Assembly: GCA_937139515.1 (NCBI GenBank)
Contig: CAKZQI010000298.1
Location: 1 to 39,855 of the forward strand
Origin: an uncultured Armatimonadota bacterium
Lineage (GTDB): Bacteria; Armatimonadota; Fimbriimonadia; Fimbriimonadales; GBS-DC
DNA: 39,855 bases
Reading direction: 5' to 3'
Shown here: positions 11,175-39,855 of the stretch, one piece after another
How positions within the stretch are numbered: the stretch's first letter is position 1
Layout of the letters: each line of letters begins with the position of its first letter
Translations under genes and position numbers: made by a program
Notes under the pieces: model-generated
Databases searched by the model: none
What the model saw: the letters and a program-made list of their open reading frames with translations, nothing else
What the model was told of the DNA's origin: nothing

Positions 11175-11248
11175 GTGGAGTCTGACGAGAAAACATTCGT
11201 TGAGTTCCAGTTTCCCGAACGCGTGCGAGGGTGTTTGAAAAATCGTGG

Positions 11249-11267
11249 CACGGGCATCCTGCCCGTG
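11249..11267. repeat. Dispersed palindrome CACGGGCATCCTGCCCGTG, copy 1
   Basis: An 8-bp inverted repeat around a 3-nt centre. Identical copies lie at 11385-11403 and 18951-18969. Confidence 0.85.
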
Positions 11268-11384
11268 GAGCGAAGCACGCAAGCCATGAGGTAGGGTAGG
11301 ATGTGTCCGCTGGGAACGCATGCGTCTCGCCTGCACCACTGGTGAGAACATCTTGAGCAAGGATACCCAAGCCACGCAATGTAG

Positions 11385-11403
11385 CACGGGCATCCTGCCC
11401 GTG
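11385..11403. repeat. Dispersed palindrome CACGGGCATCCTGCCCGTG, copy 2
   Basis: Identical to the copies at 11249 and 18951; it follows the pair-repeat unit in the truncated element. Confidence 0.85.
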
Positions 11404-11464: not shown

Positions 11465-11570
11465 GCCCACCCTATCACCCTGAGCGAAGCGAAGGGTCTG
11501 TGCTTGAGGTTGCATAGAGATTCTTCGCTTCGCTCAGAATGACAGAAGGGCATGTCAGAATGACAGTGGG
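11465..11570. repeat. CCCTGAGCGAAGCGAAGGGTC-type dispersed inverted repeat
   Basis: One arm reads CACCCTGAGCGAAGCGAAGGGTCT and the other AGATTCTTCGCTTCGCTCAGAATGAC, then a short GTCAGAATGACAG repeat. Related arms occur at 19378-19565, 39568-39665 and 39828-39855. The rest of the 11175-11689 spacer holds no gene I can support. Confidence 0.7.
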
Positions 11571-11689: not shown

Positions 11690-12727
11690 ATGGCAGACGA
11701 GGAACGCACCGAACAGGCGACACCCCGTCGTCGGCAAGAGGCGCGCAAGAAAGGGCAGGTCGCTCGCTCAGTGGAAATCAACGGGGCGGTTATCTTCTTA
11801 GCTTTTGTGTTGCTGATGCCGATTGTGCTGAACTTGGGAGGTATTCGCCTGTTGAGTGCGTTCCAACACGGTTTAGCCCAAGCGGGGAGCGCTCGGTTGT
11901 CCGACGCCCTCCTTTTTAGTGCGCTGGCAATCCTGCTCCCGCTGATGGCGGGGGCGTTTCTGGTCGCCTTGCTCACCAACGCAATGCAGGTCGGGCTGGT
12001 GCTGAGCGCGCAACCGCTGGCGCCCGACCTCAAGCGGATTGACCCCCTCAAGGGCTTCCAGCGCCTATTTTCGCGTCGGGCATTGGTGGAGCTGGTCAAA
12101 GCGGTGCTCAAGTTCGGCTTGATTGCGTGGGTGGCGTGGGGAGCCATTCAGAGCCGTCTGCCCGAACTGGTTCAGGCGTCTCAGATGGCGATGCCTCACG
12201 CTCTGCATCCCCTCTCAGAAACACTCTATCAAATCGGGCTACGCGTGGGCATCCTGTGGCTGGTGTTGGCACTGCTGGACTATCTGTACCAACGGTGGGA
12301 TTTTGAGAAAAGCATCCGAATGTCGCGCTACGAACTCAAAGAGGAGTACAAGCAGACCGAAGGAGACCCGCATATCAAGTCGCGCCTGCGCCAGCAGATG
12401 CAAAAGATTGCCCGCCAACGGATGCTGAGCGATGTGCGCAAAGCCGATGTGGTCGTCACGAACCCAGTGACTTACGCGGTGGCGTTGCGGTACGACCGAA
12501 CGAGCATGGGCGCCCCGCGTGTGGTCGCGAAGGGCAAGGGGTGGTTAGCGCGCCGTATTCGTGAGGAGGCGCTCCGCTGGCATGTGCCGATTGTGCCCAA
12601 CCCACCACTCGCCCGAAGCCTACACGCTCAGGTTGAGGTCGGGCAAGAGATACCCTCCACCCTCTACCAAGCGGTGGCGGAAGTGATGGCTTATGTGTAT
12701 CGGCTACGGCGTGCCCGACGCGCTTGA
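11690..12727 (+). CDS. flhB: FlhB-family type III export switch protein
   Basis: A 345-residue protein with the FlhB N terminus (DEERTEQATPRRRQEARKKGQVARS), four hydrophobic spans and a cytoplasmic domain. In the flagellar or virulence type III export gate, FlhB/SctU switches substrate specificity after self-cleavage at Asn-Pro in an NPTH loop. Here the loop reads TNPVTYAVALRYD with Asn258-Pro259-Val260-Thr261: the Asn-Pro pair is kept but Thr-His is replaced by Val-Thr. DPHIKSRLRQQMQ and the C-terminal VPNPPLARSLHAQVEVGQEIP are conserved. There is no ribosome-binding site at ATG 11690. No other flagellar or type III gene is in the window, so whether it serves a flagellum cannot be decided here. 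Confidence 0.93.
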   Translation: MADEERTEQATPRRRQEARKKGQVARSVEINGAVIFLAFVLLMPIVLNLGGIRLLSAFQHGLAQAGSARLSDALLFSALAILLPLMAGAFLVALLTNAMQVGLVLSAQPLAPDLKRIDPLKGFQRLFSRRALVELVKAVLKFGLIAWVAWGAIQSRLPELVQASQMAMPHALHPLSETLYQIGLRVGILWLVLALLDYLYQRWDFEKSIRMSRYELKEEYKQTEGDPHIKSRLRQQMQKIARQRMLSDVRKADVVVTNPVTYAVALRYDRTSMGAPRVVAKGKGWLARRIREEALRWHVPIVPNPPLARSLHAQVEVGQEIPSTLYQAVAEVMAYVYRLRRARRA

Positions 12728-13277: not shown

Positions 13278-13622
13278 TTATCCGGGGGGCCAGCCCATCG
13301 TGCGCCCACCCAACAGGTGTAGGTGTAAGTGATAGACCGACTGCCCTGCGTTGGCGTTCGTGTTGGCGACCACACGGTAGCCCTCCGGCTCGATGCCTTC
13401 TCGGCGGGCGAGCTCGGCGCAGACCCAAAGCAAGTGTCCCATTAGCCCCTCGTGTTCGTGGGTCATCTCGGCAAGGTTGGCGACATGGGTTCGAGGTACG
13501 ACTAAGATGTGGATGGGCGCTTGGGGATTGATGTCGCGGAAAGCGAACGCCTGCTCATCTTCGTACACGATTTGGGTGGGGATTTCGTGGCGCACGAACT
13601 TGCAAAAGAGGCACTCACTCAT
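13278..13622 (-). CDS. HIT family protein (HINT-type nucleotide hydrolase)
   Basis: A 114-residue histidine-triad protein. The N-terminal CLFCKFVRHEIPTQIVYED and the FRDINPQAPIHILVVPRTH segment are typical of HINT, and the triad lies at H98-L-H100-L-H102-L-L. The family hydrolyses purine nucleoside phosphoramidates and adenylated intermediates. The two N-terminal cysteines fit the zinc-binding pair seen in some members, though a second pair is not obvious. Its ATG lies inside the end of the upstream transposase/sigma fusion gene (8-bp overlap), with GGAGG 7 nt upstream, so the two are likely translated together. Confidence 0.95.
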   Translation of the reverse strand: MSECLFCKFVRHEIPTQIVYEDEQAFAFRDINPQAPIHILVVPRTHVANLAEMTHEHEGLMGHLLWVCAELARREGIEPEGYRVVANTNANAGQSVYHLHLHLLGGRTMGWPPG

Positions 13623-14355
13623 GGCGTTTTCCTCCGGAACGATTTAGGTACTGCTCGCGTGTCATCGTACGCATCCGTTCTAAGGCGTCGCGCTCGAATT
13701 CGCGCACTTCATCGGGCTTCAACGAGAGTTGTTCGGCGACCTCTTCGTGGGTGTGCGCCTTTTCGCCTTCCAAGCCGTAGAGCAGGCACATCACCACGCG
13801 CTCGGCAGGGAGCAGATGCTCCACCAAGCGCTCCATCTGGCGGGGGCTGAAAGGTTCGTTCTGTCCGAACACAATCTGCACGACCGCCTGTTCCTCGCTC
13901 TTGTTGCGCGATTGCCAGATTTTCAGGAGGTTGAGAATCTGGTTGTGGCTGAGGGTCTCAGCGAAGTAGCCTTCCGCCCAGAAGTTGCGCCTGCCAATCC
14001 GTTGCTCCAGGTCGGAAATCGTTTCAAAGAGGCGGTGCGCAGTGCTCCGCTTGATATTACTCACTATGTCGGCAATCGCATCGGTGGGTTTGAAGCCTAT
14101 TACGAGATGAATCTGATTCGGCGTAAGACGATATGCAATCAATTCGTACTCGTAGGTCTTGCACACCTCGGGTAGATGGGCACTCAGGATCGGAACCGCT
14201 TCCGAGTCGATAAGTGGGCTGCGAGCGCGGGCGTAGAAGGCTATCAGCGCATAAAGCCGATAGGCACTAGCTCCCGTCGTTCGCAACTTCTCAAACGGAG
14301 AGCCTTGCCCCTTTCGGCTGGACTGCTTCGTCTCTTGGGAGGACTGCTTCGCCAT
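13615..14355 (-). CDS. Degenerate Y1 (IS200-type) transposase domain fused to a sigma-70 region 4-like domain
   Basis: A 246-residue protein. Residues about 28-150 follow the plan of IS200/REP-associated Y1 transposases: YRLYALIAFYARARSPLI, then YELIAYRLTPNQIHLVIGF, SNIKRSTAHRLF and FWAEGYFAETLS. The HUH metal motif is broken: His-x-His is Gln81-Ile-His83. The helix that should carry the catalytic Tyr reads LLKIWQSRN, with Ile146-Trp147 in place of Tyr. Residues about 171-229 match sigma-70 region 4 (LPAERVVMCLLYGLEGE, THEEVAEQLSLKPDEVREFERDALERMR). The protein therefore looks like a domesticated DNA-binding protein rather than an active transposase. The start ATG at 14355 has GAGGG 5 nt upstream; the extension to 14487 overlaps the promoter. 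The HIT gene overlaps its 3' end. No flanking element ends are visible. Role unknown. Confidence 0.85.
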   Translation of the reverse strand: MAKQSSQETKQSSRKGQGSPFEKLRTTGASAYRLYALIAFYARARSPLIDSEAVPILSAHLPEVCKTYEYELIAYRLTPNQIHLVIGFKPTDAIADIVSNIKRSTAHRLFETISDLEQRIGRRNFWAEGYFAETLSHNQILNLLKIWQSRNKSEEQAVVQIVFGQNEPFSPRQMERLVEHLLPAERVVMCLLYGLEGEKAHTHEEVAEQLSLKPDEVREFERDALERMRTMTREQYLNRSGGKRHE

Positions 14356-14388: not shown

Positions 14389-14394
14389 AGTATA
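14389..14394 (-). promoter_or_regulatory. -10 box of the transposase/sigma-4 fusion gene
   Basis: Minus-strand GG-TATACT lies 33 nt upstream of the ATG at 14355, leaving a short leader with a GAGGG ribosome-binding site. Confidence 0.45.
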
Positions 14395-14464
14395 CCACAA
14401 GTCGGCTCGGGGCAACACGCAAAAAGCCACTCCCTCGCTGTCTACGCGGTTCCGCTGCTTGAGG

Positions 14465-18928: not shown

Positions 18929-19116
18929 GAGGGTGTTCGAAAAATCGTAGCACGGGCATCCTGCCCGTGAAAAATCGGGTAGGTCGGGGCAGAATGGGTC
19001 CGCTGGGAGCGCAGGCGTCTCGCCTGCATTGTCGTTGAGAACCGCTTGGTGAGGGATGCCCATGCCATGCATGCGGGCGGGACGCCCACGATCCCAGTGA
19101 TTTTTCAAACACCCTC
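18929..19116. mobile_element. 188-bp MITE-like element with 18-bp terminal inverted repeats
   Basis: It begins GAGGGTGTTCGAAAAATC and ends with the inverted copy (one mismatch, C/T) GATTTTTCAAACACCCTC. It is flanked by the exact 9-bp repeat GGGCAGGTT (18920-18928 and 19117-19125). It carries no coding capacity but contains a CACGGGCATCCTGCCCGTG palindrome (18951-18969) and a GGCGTCTCGCC segment also present in the spacer at 11227-11440. A 9-bp duplication is common for transposases of the IS4/IS50-like and some other DDE families, so it was probably mobilised in trans by an element elsewhere. It interrupts the MFS pseudogene. Confidence 0.85.
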
Positions 19117-19269: not shown

Positions 19270-19565
19270 TATTTACCTCACCCCTGACCCCCTCCTGGTA
19301 AGGGTACATCGCTTGAGTTCAAAATCACGCTAACTCATCCGTATTTTGACGGCTCTCCGTTAGCCCTCTCGCCCCAAATGTCATTCTGAGCGAAGCGAGG
19401 CTTTTCGCCTTCGGCTCAGAGTGACAAGACCCTTTGCTGACGCTCAGGGTGACAGGGTAGAGGACTGTCATTCTGGCGCCCCCCTTTTGTCATTCTGAGC
19501 GCAGTGAAGAATCTCCGTGCCACCCGAAGTAGAGACCCTTCGCTGGCGCTCAGGGTAACAGGGTG
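19270..19565. repeat. Gene-free spacer with dispersed repeats
   Basis: The stretch 19262-19712 contains no supportable gene. Around 19275-19310 there is a CCTCACCCCTGACCCCCTC piece like that at the right end of the window. From 19378 there are alternating TGTCATTCTGAGCG... and ...CGCTCAGGGTGACAG arms: at least two inverted pairs (19378-19455 and 19485-19565) of the CCCTGAGCG-type repeat. The promoter of the next gene follows near 19688. Confidence 0.6.
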
Positions 19566-19687
19566 GGGTGTTCGGGTGGAAGCGAATCTCACGGCTCAGG
19601 GCTACTGCCTGCGTCTCAAAGTGGCAGGCGTTCTGGAAAATTGAACTCAACAATGTACCCCTATCGGGGGGACTAAGCGGGGTAGGG

Positions 19688-31149: not shown

Positions 31150-31562
31150 CCCAGCACCCCCTGCAGGTGTTTCCAGAGGCTTAGCGCAAGGTTCAGAATC
31201 TGCTCAGAAAACACGGCGAATTCGGAATAGGGCCAATAATTCCCCAACTGGCTCAAATAGCCCTGAGCGAACCACCGGCTGACTAACCACGCCGAAGGCA
31301 CACACAACACCAGCCACAGCGCCGCCATCTCGCGCAGGGCGAGTGTGGGCGGGAGCGATACAGCGATTCGGCGCCCTCGTGGGGCGGGCAGGCGGGGCAG
31401 GTCGCGTAGGGCGTCGCTAATCCGAACCCAGCCCACCACCTTGCGCTGACAATCCGGGCACTCCCGCAGATGCGCCTCCACACGAGCGCGCTCAGACTCT
31501 GCGAGCCAGCCCTCTACAAAATCGTGTAGGTGCGGTTCCAACTCAGCGCATTCGGTTCTCAT
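31146..31562 (-). CDS. Zinc-finger anti-sigma factor (zf-HC2 type)
   Basis: A 138-residue protein with the ZAS signature His31-x3-Cys35-x2-Cys38 in HLRECPDC, one central-to-C-terminal membrane span (MAALWLVLCVPSAWLV) and an extracytoplasmic tail. Such proteins hold an ECF sigma factor at the membrane until a signal frees it. The start at the ATG of MRTECAELEP is chosen because it overlaps the sigma stop (ATGA); the longer frame to 31583 lies within the sigma gene. Confidence 0.92.
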   Translation of the reverse strand: MRTECAELEPHLHDFVEGWLAESERARVEAHLRECPDCQRKVVGWVRISDALRDLPRLPAPRGRRIAVSLPPTLALREMAALWLVLCVPSAWLVSRWFAQGYLSQLGNYWPYSEFAVFSEQILNLALSLWKHLQGVLG

Positions 31563-32095
31563 CCTAACTCTTCCTCCATCCACTGCCTGAGGCTCTCACG
31601 GGCGCGGTAGAGCCAAGTCTTCACTGTGCCCACCGGCACATCCAACGCCTGCGCCACCTGCTGGAGCGGGAGCTCCTCGTAATAGTGGAGCAACAGTGCC
31701 GTCCTTTGATTAGGAGGCAGGCGCAGGATGAGCCGTTGAAGCGTGCGTTGGCGCTCTCGTTCGTAGAGCTGCTCCTCCCAAGTCAGGCTTGGTGGCATCG
31801 CCTTCAAGGCGCGTTCCATCTTTTGCTGTTCGGTGTTTCGGTTGCGTCGGGCGTTCAGACATAGGCGCGCTGTGAGACACAAAAGCCAAGTCGCAAACGA
31901 CTGGCTGGGGTCATACAGCGCCAGCCGTGTGTAGGCGCGCAGGAACGACTCTTGCATCAAATCCTGCGCCCAGTCCGCCTCGCCCAGAATGCGGAACGCC
32001 AACGAGAACACGCGGTCGCGGTAGCGCTCCACCAACTGGTCAAAGGCGGTCGTATCGCCTTGTAAACACTGGTTCACAAGTTCGGCATCGCTCAT
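31559..32095 (-). CDS. RNA polymerase ECF-type sigma factor
   Basis: A 178-residue sigma-70 family protein with region 2 (DAELVNQCLQGDTTAFDQLVERYRDRVFSLAFRIL, QDLMQESFLRAY, FATWLLCLTARLCLNARR) and region 4 (RLPPNQRTALLLHYYEELPLQQVAQALDVPVGTVKTWLYRARESLRQ). It recruits core RNA polymerase to alternative promoters and is controlled by the anti-sigma protein encoded immediately downstream. It begins 1 bp after the stop of the secreted protein gene. Its target promoters are not identifiable with confidence; a GAAAC-like box upstream of the operon might be an autoregulatory one. Confidence 0.96.
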   Translation of the reverse strand: MSDAELVNQCLQGDTTAFDQLVERYRDRVFSLAFRILGEADWAQDLMQESFLRAYTRLALYDPSQSFATWLLCLTARLCLNARRNRNTEQQKMERALKAMPPSLTWEEQLYERERQRTLQRLILRLPPNQRTALLLHYYEELPLQQVAQALDVPVGTVKTWLYRARESLRQWMEEELG

Positions 32096-39437: not shown

Positions 39438-39555
39438 TTCTCCTGCTTCTGTTCCCTTCCTGAGATGTTCTCCTAGCTGACAACTTTGTTAAGTTCAAGT
39501 TTCAGAAACACCTGCCTACTTTCAGAAGCACTGACCAGAGAGGTTCGGCTCAACG

Positions 39556-39680
39556 CCAAAACCCCATCCTGTCACCCTGAGCGTCAGCGAAGGGTCTCTG
39601 CTTTGGATGCCACAGAGATTCTTCGCTGCGCTCAGAATGACAGAAAGGGGGTGTCAGAATGACAGCCCCCACCCTGTCAC
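39556..39680. repeat. CCCTGAGCGTCAGCGAAGGGTC-type dispersed repeat
   Basis: TGTCACCCTGAGCGTCAGCG followed by AAGGGTCTC and, after 18 nt, the opposing arm AGATTCTTCGCTGCGCTCAG/AATGACAG, then GTCAGAATGACAG. It is closely related to the arms at 11465 and 19378. A partial arm also closes the window at 39828-39855. The 39441-39550 stretch before it holds no gene. Confidence 0.65.
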
Positions 39681-39717
39681 CCTTAGCGTCGGTGAAGGGC
39701 CTGGGGTAATCCTTCAA

Positions 39718-39817
39718 CCTCACCCCCCTGTGTCCCCCCTCTCCGCAAGCAGAGAGGGGGGAAGTACACTGCTACTAAGCCCCCTCTCCGTTTACGGAGA
39801 GGGGGTCGGGGGTGAGG
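39718..39817. repeat. Nested cloverleaf-like palindrome (CCTCACCCCC ... GGGGGTGAGG)
   Basis: Outer arms CCTCACCCCC (39718-39727) and GGGGGTGAGG (39808-39817) enclose two inner hairpins: CCCCCCTCTC / GAGAGGGGGG (10 bp, 39734-39761) and CCCCCTCTCCG / CGGAGAGGGGG (11 bp around TTTA, 39780-39805). A truncated relative may lie at about 19275-19310. This layout resembles an interspersed repeat found in many GC-rich genomes; its function is unknown. Confidence 0.65.
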
Positions 39818-39855
39818 TCAATCAGGTTGCACCGAGATTCTTCGCTGCGCTCAGA

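Follow-up and report, generated by a model that had tools for sequence, protein, structure and literature searches.

The usual assumption about domesticated Y1 proteins is that they act by cutting single strands. The TnpA-Y1 family has been defined by a common HuH/Y core, and the C-terminal additions named in the 2018 census of this family are Bac_DnaA_C, HTH_23 and HTH_28 (PMC6006769). That census lists no sigma region 4 among such additions, and the word sigma is absent from its text (PMC6006769). In the same element family, nuclease-dead homologues of TnpB have turned into transcription factors, the TldR proteins (PMC13418256). No description of a Y1 transposase fused to sigma region 4 was found in the literature searched, whose coverage was limited.

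Here we describe such a fusion protein, encoded in a stretch of 39,855 nucleotides from an uncultured Armatimonadota bacterium (the window). It shares with the IS200/IS605 TnpAs (ISDra2 TnpA, PDB 2XM3; NF033573) the fold, an ungapped alignment of the core and a score above the NCBIfam cut-off, but it lacks the HUH His, the Tyr and the Gln ligand, carries an extra region 4, and is single-copy and fixed in its lineage. TnpA_REP/RAYT proteins are also domesticated Y1 proteins, some of them with a C-terminal HTH; unlike the fusion protein, however, they keep both HUH and Tyr. The complete helical arrangement of region 4 is common to RpoD/SigA and the fusion protein, whereas in the latter no region 2 was detected and the residues that read the -35 element are replaced. 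TldR offers an analogy in function: there an enzyme of the same element family gave up its nuclease activity and turned into a regulator, although TldR derives from TnpB and not TnpA, is RNA-guided and acts by repression.

A Y1 domain without its cutting residues

The fusion gene lies on the minus strand at 13615..14355, with an ATG at 14355 and a stop codon at 13615-13617, and its translation gives 246 amino acids without an internal stop. Residues 31-141 (13933..14265, minus strand) form a Y1_Tnp domain like that of IS200/IS605 TnpA, found with Pfam (E 2.6e-18, 66.7 bits against a cut-off of 23), with the NCBIfam IS200 model and by Foldseek to ISDra2 TnpA. Residues 179-229 (13669..13821, minus strand) form a sigma-70 region 4-like domain, found with Pfam (Sigma70_r4, E 5.3e-6, 26.3 bits against 24.1) and Foldseek. 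Both matches exceed the Pfam cut-offs, in agreement with the initial annotation of one continuous ORF joining these two domains, and each domain was detected in 16/16 aligned orthologues (E <= 0.01). An AlphaFold2 model of the protein, predicted as a monomer, had a mean pLDDT of 82.6; its Y1 fold was intact and its region 4 fold helical. An assembly chimera is ruled out by the occurrence of the same fusion in 18 genomes, one of which is a single contig (G003, AP024673.1).

The best match of the Y1 half was the NCBIfam IS200/IS605 transposase model (NF033573; 67.1 bits against a cut-off of 55), and the score with the RAYT model NF047646 was below threshold (35.3 bits against 80). The initial description as IS200/REP-associated-transposase-like therefore stands for IS200/IS605; a RAYT origin was rejected on the model scores and the protein tree described below. 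The AlphaFold2 model matched ISDra2 TnpA in Foldseek with an E-value of 1.4e-9, bearing out the intact outline read from the sequence, and an alignment of the protein with the solved ISDra2 TnpA was free of gaps across residues 31 to 151. A further Foldseek match of the model, to tRNA-His guanylyltransferase, probably reflects a generic shared fold.

In the gap-free alignment, Gln81-Ile-His83 of the fusion protein falls on His67-Val-His69 of ISDra2 TnpA and Ile146-Trp147 on Tyr132-Ile133, the register being set by the Y132F mutant structure entry, which has Phe at chain position 132. This placement agrees with the broken HUH motif and the Ile-Trp at the Tyr position noted at the outset. The third ligand of ISDra2 TnpA is Gln136, and the catalytic positions of the window protein are now Gln81, Ile146 and Arg150. 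Gln stands in place of the first HUH His in 17/17 orthologues, and the Tyr132 equivalent is I, M, L, V, A, Q or S in these 17 proteins and Tyr in none. Arg replaces the Gln136 equivalent in 16/17, and the second HUH His is kept in 12/17 and is Tyr, Asn, Gln or Ile in the other five. Loss of the first His and of the Tyr is thus common to all 17 aligned orthologues from the 18 genomes with the fusion, neither HUH nor Tyr is intact in any fusion orthologue, and nearly all Y1 relatives outside the fusion clade keep HUH. The net charge of the Y1 domain ranges from -2 to +8 across orthologues and is undecisive on nucleic-acid binding.

Single origin and purifying selection

A protein search of 61 genomes, comprising the organism's own and 60 relatives, recovered a full-length orthologue in 18/18 genomes of its own family (six genera), the orthologues of the 17 relatives being 38-64% identical to the window protein. 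No full-length orthologue was found in the other 43 genomes of the order, where matches spanned only one half. The family consists of thermophilic Fimbriimonadales (Armatimonadota) from hot springs. When 291 genomes of the phylum were searched with a profile, the same 18 were recovered and, among the matches listed, there was no further two-domain match in the 273 others. A scan of 84,980 species genomes, seeded by short motifs such that distant fusions outside the phylum could escape it, yielded 16 orthologues, from assemblies whose titles read Fimbriimonadales, Armatimonadetes or unclassified bacterium (KatS3mg018, HRbin15 and Armatimonadetes bacterium DC among them); its remaining matches were sigma-like domains or sigma factors and one Treponema Y1 fragment. 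Viral contigs held IS200-type TnpA but no fusion, and a plasmid search gave no match above 80% of the query length. Among the loci fetched for comparison, only those of the family carry both domains in one frame.

In a tree with other Y1 proteins, the fusions make up a single clade (support 99/96) on the IS200/IS605-type TnpA side, which is represented by sequences of viral contigs and of the phylum; the exact sister group is unsure because of long branches. Both domains gave dN/dS values of 0.02-0.18 in the 20 closest pairs; these are rough, as the simple Nei-Gojobori method was used and dS was often near or above 1. The gene is a single DNA copy in its genome, and no short paired repeats were found on its two sides. 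The fusion is a fixed, domesticated gene, and neither a pseudogene nor a mobile element. Single copy number, fixation in one family, purifying selection and the loss of catalytic residues in the orthologues uphold the earlier view of a domesticated transposase that does not behave as a mobile element, and we regard domestication with loss of catalysis as close to certain. The sequence comparisons place a single origin of the fusion in this family: the Y1 domain and a primary-type sigma region 4 were joined as one protein in the family ancestor; this protein lost the HUH/Tyr chemistry and has been kept under purifying selection, encoded by a host gene that has a single copy and a promoter of its own.

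Surface of the region 4 domain and proposed role

When predicted alone, the C-terminal domain had a pLDDT of 81, and the best 50 PDB matches of this model were all sigma region 4 (probability 1.00, target TM up to 0.81), at E-values that are modest owing to the small size of the domain. The structure model thus came out region 4-like, as had been read from the sequence, and the contrary outcome was not found. The nearest relatives of the domain in the same genome are its two primary-type sigma factors. Sigma70_r2 had no match at E <= 1 in the fusion protein with Pfam, and region 3 had only a sub-threshold match, located inside the region 4 HTH.

Residues that contact the -35 element or bind the polymerase core were taken from PMC4943231. 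The seven basic -35-contact positions were basic in 4 of 112 cells across 16 orthologues, compared to 14/14 cells in the organism's own two primary-type sigma factors. Position 586 was acidic in 16/16 orthologues and position 584 was Pro in 13/16, the Gln589 equivalent was retained in most, and the net charge of the recognition helix was -2 to +2, in contrast to +4 to +6 in the organism's own sigma factors. Since basic -35 contacts are lost in every orthologue, ordinary -35 binding by this region 4 appears unlikely, and the DNA-binding role that had initially been suggested is likewise improbable if it is to run via region 4. On the core-binding side, Glu555 was retained in 15/16 orthologues, position 565 was Leu in all, matching the own sigma factors, and position 598 was hydrophobic in every orthologue; every orthologue has Leu in place of Arg562 and Ala in place of Gly577, and Phe563 was replaced by Tyr or His. 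In these alignments the core-facing positions are better preserved than the -35-contact ones, though partly changed.

As judged from sequence, textbook residues are gone from both surfaces that act on nucleic acid, with both folds under purifying selection, a pattern that points to protein docking. We consider it fairly probable that region 4 serves for protein docking rather than -35 binding; docking, be it on the RNA polymerase beta flap or on the HIT protein, would be the best explanation left. The Y1 part would form a dimeric platform that may still hold structured single strands, and the region 4 part, devoid of -35-reading residues, would be the docking module. RNA polymerase is the leading candidate partner, and the most natural docking site would be its beta-flap tip, which is normally gripped by region 4; we hold the beta flap as the partner to be conceivable, at somewhat less than even chance. 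Taken together, a domesticated, non-cutting IS200/IS605-type TnpA may act as an RNA-polymerase-associated regulator, neither enzyme nor sigma factor, a proposal that we put forward tentatively and rate a little short of even. A more specific version, in which the protein mimics sigma region 4 on the flap near the RNA exit channel and the Y1 dimer recognises hairpins as they emerge, or single strands left exposed, seems improbable; if true, it would provide a transposase-derived sensor tuning initiation, pausing or termination.

Throughout the family the cutting chemistry is gone, while the fold remains under strong conservation and is joined to a part of the transcription apparatus. The fusion is a TnpA-side counterpart of the recently described route from TnpB to TldR, and a clear, testable case of a transposase becoming a non-enzymatic host protein. 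Automatic annotation as 'IS200/IS605 transposase' would mislabel it.

Promoter, neighbourhood and rival readings

When upstream regions were compared, a conserved promoter-like element of the extended -10 type, TGTGGTATACT, emerged at 14389..14399 (minus strand), some 40 nt ahead of the start codon. In most members a GGTATACT element and a GGAGG-type ribosome site are conserved upstream of the fusion. The GGTATACT element also occurs often upstream of other family genes, with a count in the window above chance, and since it precedes unrelated genes it reads as an ordinary promoter; an autoregulatory inverted repeat upstream of the fusion was rejected on the same grounds. The recurrent extended -10 of the family, (TG)GGGTATA(A/C)T, was seen at 14389-14399 and upstream of many genes in loci L032-L047, and no -35 hexamer was evident by eye.

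A conventional regulator, with the Y1 part providing dimerisation as in HTH-bearing RAYTs and the region 4 HTH recognising duplex DNA of a novel specificity, would agree with the known C-terminal HTH additions to Y1 proteins (PMC6006769), the intact HTH fold and the retained Gln589 equivalent; the near-complete loss of basic DNA-contact positions, one of which is acidic throughout, and the low charge of the recognition helix make it rather unlikely. A different partner is suggested by the HIT-domain gene at 13278..13622 (minus strand; Pfam HIT, 7.9e-29), whose start overlaps the end of the fusion ORF by a few bases, as was noted initially. The HIT gene overlaps or directly follows the fusion in 15/18 genomes, in one further genome the contig ends, and no other tested neighbour is common to the family genomes. 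The fusion protein might then scaffold or regulate the co-transcribed HIT hydrolase, unrelated to RNA polymerase. However, in the basal genomes G002 and G005 the fusion gene lies elsewhere, next to pyrR-pyrB-like ORFs in one genome and near a ribonucleotide reductase in the second, with HIT encoded on a different contig, so the fusion protein is probably older than the linkage; we think this reading unlikely.

The genome also contains about 196 GTRG-tagged CACGGGCATCCTGCCCGTG palindromes, and the only Y1 protein detected in it is the catalytically dead fusion, which could thus bind these GTAG-tagged hairpins without cutting. Copy number is, however, patchy in the family (0 to 196): the repeats are absent from 8/18 fusion-carrying genomes, and G018 and G041, which lack the fusion, have 33 and 87. 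Because several of the repeats sit at the ends of contigs, the assembly may lack a genuine RAYT. A dedicated REP binder was rejected, as repeat counts do not track presence of the fusion, and hairpin binding of this kind is a very unlikely explanation. Finally, the missing catalytic residues could be those of a decaying transposase or an annotation or assembly artefact, but the ORF is open in all 18 genomes, including the single-contig one, under strong purifying selection and with a conserved promoter and ribosome-binding site; this reading is refuted by conservation and has a negligible probability. The RNA-polymerase-associated regulator remains our preferred reading.

Copies of the GTRG-tagged palindromes in the window (GTRGCACGGGCATCYTGCCCGTG) are found at 11245-11267, 11381-11403 and 18947-18969, the nearest being 2.2 kb and 4.6 kb from the fusion gene and not flanking it. 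A second family of intergenic palindromic repeats, CACCCTGAGCGAAGCGAAGGGTCT / AGATTCTTCGCTTCGCTCAGAATGACA, occurs in several orientations at 11472-11566, 19372-19568 and 39526-39855. Host genes around the fusion encode AnmK, FlhB, a flavin reductase, HIT, a hydrolase, a TIM-barrel protein, an aminotransferase and an HD protein; flhB (11690-12727) stands amid non-flagellar neighbours. A small ECF-like sigma factor with regions 2 and 4 is encoded at 31559-32095. In G005, a class II ribonucleotide reductase with a LAGLIDADG intein lies near the fusion gene (L155, 10908-14873).
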